From NCBI GenBank assembly GCA_900554725.1, contig USII01000065.1, forward strand, positions 1 to 6,126: DNA of 6,126 nucleotides, in the 5' to 3' direction. This DNA is from an uncultured Eubacteriales bacterium. GTDB lineage: Bacteria; Bacillota; Clostridia; Christensenellales; Christensenellaceae. Both the position numbers and the translations under genes were made by a program. Position 1 is the stretch's first letter; each line of letters begins with the position of its first letter. Positions 2,172 through 4,740 of the stretch are shown here, in pieces. A model generated the notes under the pieces. The model made no database searches and was not told the DNA's origin. It saw only the letters and a program-made list of their open reading frames with translations.

Positions 2172-2200
2172 TTGACAAATTTTAATTTGCCGGATAAGAT
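2172..2200 (+). promoter_or_regulatory. Strong sigma-A promoter for the T-box transcript
   Basis: A perfect -35 hexamer TTGACA (2172-2177), a 17-base spacer and TAAGAT (2195-2200) precede the leader. Transcription would start near 2207-2210. The -35 begins only nine bases after the upstream stop codon, so read-through from the glycosyltransferase gene could also enter the leader. Confidence 0.85.
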
Positions 2201-2235
2201 AATAGAAAATAGCATATGTGAATGTGTGGAAGGGG

Positions 2236-2314
2236 AGTAGTAATCTCGCCGAAGAGCTTTTTAGAGAGCTGCCGGGTGGTGCAAGGCAGCATAAGCCTGG
2301 AGCAGATGAACTCG
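2236..2314 (+). promoter_or_regulatory. T-box specifier loop: CUC codon (Leu) at 2311-2313
   Basis: The internal loop of Stem I has AGUAGUA (2236-2242) on the 5' side and GAACUCG (2308-2314) on the 3' side. In T-box leaders an AGUA/GAA pair forms the S-turn and the codon follows the GAA. This gives CUC, a leucine codon, at 2311-2313, followed by a purine. The closing helices on both sides (GGGG/CCCC below, AUCU/AGAU above) fix the register. CUC is a common leucine specifier in known T-boxes. The flanking purine is G rather than the usual A. Confidence 0.78.
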
Positions 2315-2420
2315 CCCCGGAGCAGCCAAACTGAAATAGATAGGTTTGGACGGGAACTCAGCCGAAACAATGAGTGCAGCATGATAGTGCTGGCAGAGCT
2401 GGCAGAAGTAATTTCTGCAA

Positions 2421-2457
2421 GCAGAGTGGTACCGCGAAGGATAACCTTCGTCTCTGT
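2421..2457 (+). promoter_or_regulatory. T-box antiterminator with UGGU bulge
   Basis: GCAGAG (2421-2426) pairs with CUCUGU (2452-2457). A seven-base bulge UGGUACC (2427-2433) follows, and then GCGAAGG (2434-2440) pairs with CCUUCGU (2445-2451) around an AUAA loop. The bulge begins UGGU, which pairs with a tRNA 3' end ACCA, so the tRNA should carry discriminator base A. tRNA-Leu fits this, and tRNA-Ser (discriminator G) does not. Confidence 0.93.
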
Positions 2458-2481
2458 AGAGACGAAGGTTTTTTTATTTTT
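2443..2481 (+). terminator. T-box regulated Rho-independent terminator
   Basis: A perfect 12-bp stem (2443-2454 with 2459-2470) with loop TGTA leads into a T-rich tract through 2481, interrupted by a single A. Its 5' arm shares bases 2445-2454 with the antiterminator, so only one of the two structures can form. Confidence 0.96.
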
Positions 2482-2492
2482 CACAAACATGA

Positions 2493-2497
2493 GGAGG
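2493..2497 (+). promoter_or_regulatory. Ribosome binding site of the acyl-CoA synthetase gene
   Basis: GGAGG within GAGGAGGT lies 8 bases before the ATG at 2506 and just after the T-box terminator. This rules out the in-frame upstream ATG at 2374, which lies inside the leader RNA. Confidence 0.9.
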
Positions 2498-2505
2498 TTA
2501 CCAAA

Positions 2506-4182
2506 ATGGCAGAAATGTCAGATATGATAACAATGACAATCGGGCAGATGGTGGAGAGCCAGGCAAGGATGCACCCGGATAACGATGGACTTATCGCCCC
2601 GCTCATCGGCGTGCGCTATACCTACCGGCAGTTCAATGAGGAATGCGATACCATCGCCAAGGCTTTTTTGGCAATGGGCATAAAAAAGGGCGATCATATC
2701 GCAATCTGGTCCACAAATTACCCGCAATGGGTGATCACCCAAGTAGCCGCCTCCAAGATTGGGGCAGTGCTGGTGACGGTTAACACCGCATATAAGCGTT
2801 TTGAGCTGGAATATCTTTTAAGGCAATCGGATTCTTCTACGCTCATCACTATGCAGGGGTTGAAGGATTCCAATTATATCGAGCATATCATGGGCATTTG
2901 CCCTGAAATTGAAACCAGCCGGCCGGGAGAGCTGAACAGCGAAGCGCTGCCCCGCCTCAAACGCATCATATACCTGGATGAGCATACGCCAAAGGGCATG
3001 TTTAACTGGAAAGACCTCTATCAGTTTGCCAAACAGGTGAGCGATGAGCAGCTTAAAAAGGCAAAAGCGCAGGTGGGAATTCACGATGTTGCCAATATGC
3101 AGTATACTTCCGGGACGACAGGCTTCCCCAAAGGCGTCATGTTGACACACTTTAACCTGCTCAACAACGGCAAGGGCATTGGGGATTGCATGAGGCTTAC
3201 CGAAAAAGATCGCCTGCTCATCCATGTTCCGCTGTTTCACTGCTTTGGTGCGGTGCTGGGCGTCATGAGCTGCATCACGCACGGGACAACCATCGTGCTA
3301 AACGATCACTTTAACCCCGTTCATGCGCTTCAGGTGATCGAGAGCGAGAAATGTACTGCAGTGCATGGCGTTCCCACCATGTTCATCTCCATGCTGAATG
3401 TAGACGGATTTGAAAAGTACGATCTTTCCAGCCTGCGCACGGGCATTATGGCGGGTTCTCCCTGCCCGATAGAGCTGATGCGCCGTGCCATCAACGAGAT
3501 GGGGATGCGCGAAATTACCATTACCTATGGCCTGACAGAAGCCTCGCCCGCCATCACAATGACGACGACGGAAGACCCTGTGGAAGTGCGCGTCAATACC
3601 ATCGGCAAGGCCATGCCGCATGTGGAGGTAAAAATCGTCGATCCCGAAACAGGGGAGGAATGCCCGGACGGTGTGCCTGGGGAGATCATGTCCCGGGGAT
3701 ATAACACCATGAAGGGATACTATAATATGCCGGAAGCAACAGCCCAGGCAATCGAGCCGGATGGCTGGCTGCATACGGGAGATATCGGCACGCGGGATGC
3801 CAGCGGCTACTATAAAGTCACCGGGCGGCTCAAGGATATGATTATCCGGGGCGGAGAAAATATCTATCCCCGCGAATTGGAAGAATTCTTATATACGCAT
3901 GAATGCGTGCAGGATGTGCAGGTGATCGGAGTGCCGGATGAAAAATATGGCGAAGAGGTGATGGCCTGTATTATCCTGAAGCCGGGTGCCGCGCAACCGA
4001 CGGAAGAGGAGATGATCGAGTTTGTTCGCGGCGGGCTTTCCCGTTTTAAAGCGCCTCGCTATGTGCGCTTTGTAGAGGGATTTCCCATGAACGCGGCGGG
4101 GAAAATTCAGAAATTCAAGATGCGCGAATGGGCTGTGCAGGAATTGGGGTTAGGAGAAACGGCAAACATTGAAACGGCCTAG
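2506..4182 (+). CDS. AMP-forming acyl-CoA synthetase, YngI/FadD-like (short- or medium-chain, possibly branched)
   Basis: The 558-residue protein should activate a carboxylic acid with ATP to an acyl-adenylate and then form the acyl-CoA, in the cytoplasm. It carries the full set of adenylating-enzyme motifs: phosphate loop YTSGTTGFPKG (200-210), YGLTEASP (341-348), GWLHTGD (420-426), hinge and A8 motif GRLKDMIIRGGENIYPRELE (440-459), and the catalytic lysine K533 in NAAGKIQK (529-536). No key residue is missing, and the length is normal for the family (about 545-560). From memory, long stretches resemble Bacillus subtilis YngI, a ligase in an operon linked to leucine and branched-acid metabolism. 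It is transcribed alone between the T-box leader and its own terminator. Control by a leucine-type T-box means expression should rise when tRNA-Leu is uncharged. The chain length and identity of the acid cannot be read. Candidates are isovalerate, other branched or medium-chain acids, and acetoacetate. Confidence 0.95.
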   Translation: MAEMSDMITMTIGQMVESQARMHPDNDGLIAPLIGVRYTYRQFNEECDTIAKAFLAMGIKKGDHIAIWSTNYPQWVITQVAASKIGAVLVTVNTAYKRFELEYLLRQSDSSTLITMQGLKDSNYIEHIMGICPEIETSRPGELNSEALPRLKRIIYLDEHTPKGMFNWKDLYQFAKQVSDEQLKKAKAQVGIHDVANMQYTSGTTGFPKGVMLTHFNLLNNGKGIGDCMRLTEKDRLLIHVPLFHCFGAVLGVMSCITHGTTIVLNDHFNPVHALQVIESEKCTAVHGVPTMFISMLNVDGFEKYDLSSLRTGIMAGSPCPIELMRRAINEMGMREITITYGLTEASPAITMTTTEDPVEVRVNTIGKAMPHVEVKIVDPETGEECPDGVPGEIMSRGYNTMKGYYNMPEATAQAIEPDGWLHTGDIGTRDASGYYKVTGRLKDMIIRGGENIYPRELEEFLYTHECVQDVQVIGVPDEKYGEEVMACIILKPGAAQPTEEEMIEFVRGGLSRFKAPRYVRFVEGFPMNAAGKIQKFKMREWAVQELGLGETANIETA

Positions 4183-4215
4183 CATCAGCGCAGAAATGCG
4201 GCATGAAATAATGGG

Positions 4216-4246
4216 AGAGGCGTAAAAAAGCGTCTCTTCTTTTTTT
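4216..4246 (+). terminator. Rho-independent terminator after the acyl-CoA synthetase gene
   Basis: An 8-bp stem with two G-U pairs, AGAGGCGT (4216-4223) with GCGTCTCT (4230-4237), has a loop of six A and is followed by TCTTTTTTT. It lies 33 bases after the stop codon. Confidence 0.88.
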
Positions 4247-4395: not shown

Positions 4396-4740
4396 ATGAA
4401 AAAAACTGTATCTGTTTTTATGGCGCTCCTTGCCATGATCATTTTGCTGGCAGGGTGCAAGAATATCAGCGATAATGCCGGCGGCAAAATAGAGCCGCCC
4501 TCTCCTGCACTTCCCCAGGAGGACGACAGCCCGGATGGCAGTGTTCTGCCGGAATCCACCATCATGCCCGAGCTCGTTCCTTCCAAGGATAGCGAACCGA
4601 GCGCTTCTCCCGCCGGCACTTCTTCTTCGGGCATGGAGAGCCCGTCCATCCTGCCTGAGCAGAGCGCGGATCCTTCGCCTGGCCAGGATGCGGCAGAAGG
4701 CGGCGGCACAGCCGGCGAAGGGGGCTCTGCCCATACCTGA
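4396..4740 (+). CDS. Small Pro/Ser/Glu/Gly-rich lipoprotein of unknown function
   Basis: The 114-residue product begins with a lipoprotein signal peptide: a basic MKK start, a hydrophobic core (about residues 5-18) and the lipobox LLAGC, with the acylated cysteine at position 21. The mature part of about 94 residues is low-complexity and rich in Pro, Ser, Glu, Asp, Gly and Ala. It is acidic, almost free of aromatic residues, and shows no recognisable domain. It should sit on the outer face of the membrane as a flexible, extended chain. The start at 4396 is chosen because AGGAG lies 8 bases upstream and gives a proper signal peptide; the in-frame ATG at 4321 would put 25 extra residues before it. 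The gene has its own terminator, so it is not in an operon with lgt. I do not recognise the family. It may be a spacer-like or cell-wall-spanning lipoprotein, or a decayed form of a larger one. Confidence 0.8.
   Translation: MKKTVSVFMALLAMIILLAGCKNISDNAGGKIEPPSPALPQEDDSPDGSVLPESTIMPELVPSKDSEPSASPAGTSSSGMESPSILPEQSADPSPGQDAAEGGGTAGEGGSAHT

Follow-up and report, generated by a model that had tools for sequence, protein, structure and literature searches.

The DNA analyzed here, a window of 6,126 nucleotides from an uncultured Eubacteriales bacterium of the Christensenellaceae (contig USII01000065.1, assembly GCA_900554725.1), carries a leucine-type class I T-box leader directly upstream of a gene coding for an AMP-forming acyl-CoA ligase. 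The T-box probably turns on the ligase in leucine shortage and the ligase would feed isovalerate (3-methylbutyrate) into leucine, a reading in which the switching, the substrate, and the flux are each predicted. Isovalerate is the likely substrate given the gene partners of the ligase and the identity of the T-box. When charged tRNA-Leu falls, uncharged tRNA-Leu would pair with the CUC specifier and the UGGU bulge of the leader and hold the antiterminator, such that the ligase is transcribed. The ligase would convert isovalerate, ATP, and CoA to isovaleryl-CoA, from which a VOR-type 2-oxoacid:ferredoxin oxidoreductase working in the carboxylating direction would form 2-oxoisocaproate using CO2 and reduced ferredoxin, and a branched-chain aminotransferase would complete the route to leucine.

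Structure of the T-box leader

The covariance search with RF00230 that an earlier note on this DNA had suggested gave a full-model match (model positions 1-219) at 2218..2458 of the forward strand, on which the ligase and the signals around it also lie (cmscan, 108.9 bits, E 3.7e-24, curated cut-off 93 bits). This was the sole match at curated cut-offs in a covariance-model scan of the whole window. Covariance alignment placed Stem I at 2224..2323, including the specifier loop and the apical AGAGA and GGUGG motifs, and the leucine specifier CUC at 2311..2313 (bases rechecked), followed by the spacer G2314 and by CCCC at 2315-2318 paired with GGGG at 2232-2235 (aligned as GAA-CUC-G-CCCC). The antiterminator with the T-box sequence AGAGUGGUACCGCG was located at 2423..2454 by covariance alignment and folding, and its UGGU bulge (2427-2430 in the covariance alignment) is compatible with a discriminator base A. 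An intrinsic terminator at 2443..2480, made up of a 12-pair hairpin (2443-2470) and a U-rich tail (hairpin scan and folding), overlaps the antiterminator such that the two folds are mutually exclusive, as in class I T-boxes; the folding energy was -18.3 kcal/mol for the terminator hairpin vs. -15.7 kcal/mol for the antiterminator stretch 2420-2460. With a score above the cut-off, a UGGN bulge, and a conserved, readable specifier, the window RNA is an unremarkable member of class I, and the match and alignment confirm the complete leader with CUC specifier, UGGU bulge, and terminator that the earlier note had described. A chance match was ruled out by the E value together with the recurrence of the leader at clostridial ligase loci presented below. 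The span previously assigned to the system (2208..4182) starts 10 bases ahead of the covariance match and ends at the ligase stop codon, and no intervening open reading frame was judged to be a gene, in agreement with the claim that the leader stands directly before the ligase. A putative sigma-70-like promoter (TTGACA-17 nt-TAAGAT, 2172..2200) was identified upstream of the leader by consensus scan.

Recurrence of the leader at ligase loci

The search of related genomes for T-boxes before orthologous ligases, also proposed in the earlier note, covered the best 80 ligase loci from a scan with a 14-sequence alignment, including 60 clostridial loci and 20 from Bacilli, Geobacter-type bacteria, or spirochaetes. 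A T-box core (GTGGNACCRCG with at most one change, upstream and on the ligase strand) was found at 32 of the 60 clostridial loci and near the ligase at none of the 20 others. The core lies directly upstream of the ligase in 27 of the 32 (including L026, whose open frame overruns the leader), is separated from it by a single gene coding for a LeuA-like protein in four (L046, L051, L066, and L070), and by six genes in L077. A covariance-model match was obtained for 28 of the 32 leaders, 27 of them above the curated cut-off (10 of these tied to the ligase by contig position, from a match listing suited to confirming leaders but not to excluding them); the L077 leader scored 86 bits when searched alone (E 2.7e-19, below the cut-off of 93), while those of L014, L018, L029, and L070 fell below the covariance cut-off and were identified by the core motif. 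Most ligases sharing the leader have 54-61% identity to the window protein.

The nearest genome to the window is G001, whose ligase (locus L001) is 91% identical to that of the window, the value of the closest protein match; matches named Christensenellaceae or Christensenella reach approximately 64-73%. Among 30 ligase loci from relatives of G001, the core was present in six (L100, which is L001 again, L108, L110, L115, L123, and L124), in a set where L101 has a single base upstream and the script failed to recognize L114, L127, and L108, the last of which was placed separately.

Conservation of the leucine specifier

Tabulating specifiers across relatives, as the earlier note had proposed, yielded leucine in all 36 readable leaders (31 CUC and five CUG) among 38 including the window, with the unreadable L014 and L018 excluded from the count, and hence no call for any other amino acid. 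In the 19 covariance-aligned ligase leaders, the specifier column reads CUC in 15 (the window, L001, L009, L012, L013, L019, L020, L035, L123, L115, L026, L124, L059, L032, and L077) and CUG in four (L108, L110, L043, and L031). A further 17 leaders were assigned to leucine by a scripted rule or, for L048, by eye, giving 16 CUC and the CUG of L070. The scripted rule returned several candidate frames per leader, from which the helix-fitting frame was chosen, and missed the window, L048, and L161; the specifiers of the window and L161 were taken from covariance alignments.

Neighboring frames were considered and rejected since the leucine frame alone retains one amino acid: one base upstream, the encoded amino acid varies between leaders (ACU, GCU, UCU, and CCU), and one base downstream the triplet is UCN (serine) in the CUC leaders but UGG, UGA, or UGC in the five CUG leaders. 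Six aminoacyl-tRNA synthetase leaders of G001 with proteins above NCBIfam cut-offs were aligned in the same way as a control, and the covariance column was correct in four, namely valS (GUC), pheS (UUC), serS (UCC), and leuS (CUC). It was shifted in the two lowest-scoring leaders, proS (74.5 bits, read as CAC) and thrS (61.3 bits, read as CCA), in which the expected CCC and ACC lie two bases and one base upstream of the column, respectively, as read by eye; the covariance column is therefore able to slip in weak, short leaders. The leucine specificity claimed for the window leader was borne out by specifiers that switch solely between CUC and CUG in relatives and by the CUC that the G001 leuS leader shares with the ligase leaders.

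Gene partners of the ligase in relatives

The ligase is joined to leucine genes behind leucine T-boxes in several relatives. The order leucine T-box, ligase, and leuS was identified in Desulfofundulus (L020) and Desulfotruncus (L035). In L077, the T-box is followed by genes coding for an ATPase, VorB, VOR beta, VOR gamma, a branched-chain aminotransferase, a LeuA-like protein, and the ligase, where VorB (541 bits, cut-off 399) and the aminotransferase (483.8 bits, cut-off 307) passed their cut-offs and VOR beta and gamma, below theirs, were named from the best match. In L066, a run on one strand comprises the T-box (93.1 bits, cut-off 93), a LeuA-like gene, the ligase, an aminotransferase (504.9 bits), an ATPase, VorB (530.9 bits), VOR beta, and VOR gamma. 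The association of ligase, VOR-type oxidoreductase, and aminotransferase behind a leucine T-box was thus encountered in the relatives L066 and L077, and VOR genes were found upstream of the leader on the same strand in L046 and L062. Within the fetched flanks, whose lengths differ where contigs end, VOR genes occurred at four of 32 T-box loci and an aminotransferase at five of 32, with neither found at the 28 clostridial loci without T-box or the 20 others. These runs support the proposal of the earlier note that the cell treats the ligase as part of leucine supply. The same note placed the target outside the usual T-box classes, a view that does not hold under the isovalerate route because this route makes the ligase a biosynthetic gene.

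The LeuA-like protein in these clusters (L077 7730-9124, L066 7736-9142, L046 6361-7740, and L051 7708-9114) retains the LeuA_dimer domain. The HxH of LeuA, which we take to be its metal motif, is lost in all four aligned sequences and DTTLRDGEQ is mostly lost, such that the protein may be a leucine-sensing pseudoenzyme. The leaders of L020 and L035, both from sulfate reducers, contain a tRNA-Ala(GGC) gene ahead of the antiterminator (L020 9755-9829 and L035 9796-9871), and the covariance model aligns around the insert.

The window ligase

The ligase gene (2506..4182, 558 amino acids, ATG at 2506) codes for a predicted isovalerate-CoA ligase with AMP-binding (PF00501, 339 bits) and AMP-binding_C (PF13193, 65.6 bits) domains. 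The motif YTSGTTGFPKG is invariant in the 14-sequence ligase alignment and, with the two domains, places the protein in the ANL superfamily. The top NCBIfam match was PRK12583 (fatty acid CoA ligase) at 756.5 bits, below the membership cut-off of 832, and the protein fell under the curated cut-off for all of the best 25 of 109 matching NCBIfam models. Among solved structures, the closest are those of a fatty-acyl-CoA synthase and of a feruloyl-CoA synthetase, with scores of just 266 bits. The description "fatty-acid-type" given in the earlier note is suitable as a family label but not as a statement of substrate, for which the genomic context favors a short branched acid.

An isoleucine counterpart

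A second ligase follows the same logic with isoleucine. In G001, a T-box at C5:25255-25478 (106.7 bits) is followed by the genes of an XRE-cupin regulator and of a second AMP-forming ligase (T-box, regulator, and ligase at L130 1528-3779, assigned by covariance match and by structure-relative and domain searches). The best solved relative of this ligase is MacsMa (3etc, 734 bits), for which an excerpt of PMC10455477 gives 2-methylbutyrate as the preferred substrate. It scored 473.5 bits against the MbcS model, below the cut-off of 850, and 198.5 bits against PRK12583 vs. 756.5 for the window ligase, placing the two ligases in distinct subfamilies; MacsMa and MbcS are accordingly related to the second ligase and the window ligase belongs to another subfamily.

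The second ligase was found in 55 of 61 genomes. Thirty of its loci were fetched and 10 had a T-box core upstream; seven of these leaders were above the curated cut-off and in all seven the covariance alignment places AUC (isoleucine) at the specifier, while those of L148, L149, and L152, below the cut-off, gave AUC by the scripted rule. Locus L054 has divergent leaders, with AUC toward the second ligase at 6211 on the minus strand and CUC toward the first at 6764 on the plus strand, both read by the rule. Both ligases and VOR genes share one neighborhood in L046, L062, and L066, in a flank search where hits of the second-ligase query to the first ligase (25-29% identity) were disregarded. On balance these data lean toward a two-armed clostridial T-box regulon, in which the leucine arm would supply an isovalerate-CoA ligase and the isoleucine arm a 2-methylbutyrate-CoA ligase to one shared ferredoxin-dependent 2-oxoacid synthase and aminotransferase. 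As the isoleucine twin shares the logic of the leucine system and has a relative with a measured substrate, it provides the best outside check on the isovalerate prediction, and the two arms can cross-check one another's substrate predictions.

Evidence against the proposed isovalerate route and alternative explanations

Several observations weigh against the isovalerate route, some of which feed the alternatives considered below. The T-box core was absent near the ligase at 28 of the 60 clostridial loci (five of which have less than 700 bases upstream) and from seven sister-group genomes, two of them named Christensenella, with at least 1.4 kb upstream. Distant upstream cores occur in three of the 28 (L002, L045, and L076), with that of L045 situated in a coding frame and those of L002 and L076 deviating from the core. 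On a ligase tree (FastTree, 95 rows, 38 with leader, with L064 and L038 on very long branches and unreliable), the leader was distributed patchily, with 22 changes compared to approximately 30 in shuffled data. Control of the ligase by the leader is lineage-patchy; the earlier note had named orthologues lacking the leader as evidence against its claim and these do occur.

Of 16 genomes examined, 15 contain VorB above its cut-off, such that its presence is little informative and linkage alone counts; in G001, VorB is on a different contig from the ligase. That leucine is made solely from isovalerate was not generally upheld, as many genomes retain canonical leucine genes: leuA was above the cut-off in 10 of 16, a second leuA type scored 617-660 bits (below the cut-off of 697.4) in three more, leuB was above the cut-off in nine, and a leuC-type gene in 11. 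Neither leuA type reached such scores in G012, G015, and G016, and in the 16 assemblies, which are possibly incomplete, leuA, leuB, and leuC were all missing in G015 (the genome of L077) only. G001 keeps leuA, although searches of its 1.4 Mb assembly gave neither leuB nor leuC. Within the window, no other leucine-pathway gene adjoins the ligase and its neighbors are the lipid genes lgt and an MGDG-type glycosyltransferase (NCBIfam/Pfam). No demonstrated substrate was encountered for any enzyme of the subfamily of the window ligase.

The ligase could instead make isovaleryl-CoA chiefly as a primer for iso-branched membrane fatty acids, with the leucine T-box compensating for scarce leucine as the usual primer source. 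This explanation is unlikely but the strongest of the alternatives, as it accommodates the lipid genes beside the window ligase, an lgt-like open reading frame (identified by eye) that begins approximately 11 bases past the ligase in Christensenella locus L002, and the fabH, fabK, fabD, fabG, and fabF genes that follow the ligase on the same strand in L011. The similarity of the second ligase to MbcS, which we take to supply branched-chain fatty-acid primers and to act on branched acids, points in the same direction. However, L011 is without a T-box core near its ligase, a FabH query matched none of the 32 leader-bearing loci, among which leuS, VOR, and aminotransferase genes are present instead, and lipid demand alone leaves the pairing with leuS or VOR unexplained.

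A role in the breakdown of leucine or isovalerate, as appears to be the case for Bacillus relatives, is very improbable for the leader-bearing ligases. An acyl-CoA ligase of the same family in Bacillus, which we take to be the one called "yng-type," stands beside genes resembling those of leucine/isovalerate catabolism and likely serves the catabolic direction. In Priestia locus L060, the ligase lies beside an acyl-CoA dehydrogenase, a biotin carboxylase, an enoyl-CoA hydratase, and a carboxylase (best NCBIfam matches), and an acyl-CoA dehydrogenase was found in the flanks of seven of the 20 non-clostridial loci (adjoining the ligase in six) and of one of the 28 clostridial loci without T-box (L030), but in those of none of the 32 leader-bearing loci. 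No T-box core lies near the ligase at the 20 non-clostridial loci, and control by such a T-box would be expected to activate the gene in starvation, contrary to catabolic need. Action of the ligase on a different acid, whether long-chain, aromatic, or hydroxy, behind a metabolically meaningless leucine T-box is similarly remote, since the sub-threshold NCBIfam scores and distant solved relatives that would allow it are set against recurrence of the leader on distant relatives, leucine specifiers kept despite CUC/CUG changes, and linkage to leuS and VOR genes, which together argue against an accidental T-box.

Relation to known systems and significance

The window leader resembles known leucine class I T-boxes, including those of the Bacillus subtilis ilv-leu operon, of leuS genes, and of Geobacter leuA, in its RF00230 architecture, CUC specifier, UGGU bulge, and transcriptional terminator, and differs from them in having an acyl-CoA ligase as target. 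The leucine specifier of the ilv-leu operon is CUC (Marta et al., 1996, as cited in an excerpt of PMC2494555) and a leucine T-box precedes leuA in Geobacter (excerpt of PMC2700814). No CoA ligase was named as a T-box target in the portions of PMC7778990, PMC3766115, PMC2494555, and PMC11477304 returned by term searches, and no such target appeared among the papers listed by T-box literature searches for acyl-CoA, isovalerate, and ferredoxin oxidoreductase contexts, a scope that excluded two main surveys and supplementary tables. Within this limited literature, the ligase target and its regulon are unreported.

In rumen cultures, leucine also arises via isovalerate carboxylation followed by amination and 2-methylbutyrate is a precursor of isoleucine, according to an excerpt of PMC7356843 that cites Allison and co-workers (1962, 1966) for the leucine route. 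The pathway proposed for the window ligase shares with that of the rumen anaerobes the carboxylation and amination by which isovalerate becomes leucine, and differs in that a candidate acid-activating gene, with a predicted enzyme, and its control are named here; no named gene for this step was encountered in the literature searched. As the specifier codon names the amino acid that a gene serves, the leaders allow the substrates of two vaguely annotated ligase families to be predicted. If correct, the present reading would put names to the genes for acid activation in the isovalerate route to leucine, described in 1962, and to the control of this route, and would provide an annotation marker for bacteria scavenging branched volatile acids, with a bearing on rumen and gut cross-feeding.

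Other features of the window and of related loci

A ribosome-binding site (GAGGAGG, 2491..2497) precedes the ligase start codon, and a hairpin scan identified a terminator-like hairpin at 4213..4240 downstream of the gene, such that the ligase is likely a single-gene unit. The window further codes for a small predicted lipoprotein (4396-4740) that matches no Pfam or NCBIfam model. A xylose-isomerase-like TIM barrel (AP_endonuc_2) was found near or fused to the ligase at 44 of the 60 clostridial loci and none of the 20 others, for instance in L012 (11712-12530) and as an N-terminal fusion in L077, L071, L079, and others. An Amidohydro_2 family protein is encoded in the flanks of 10 of the 60 clostridial loci (such as L012 12561-13367 and L046 10268-11077), and in L043 a cobalamin riboswitch (11733-11922) lies downstream of the ligase gene.

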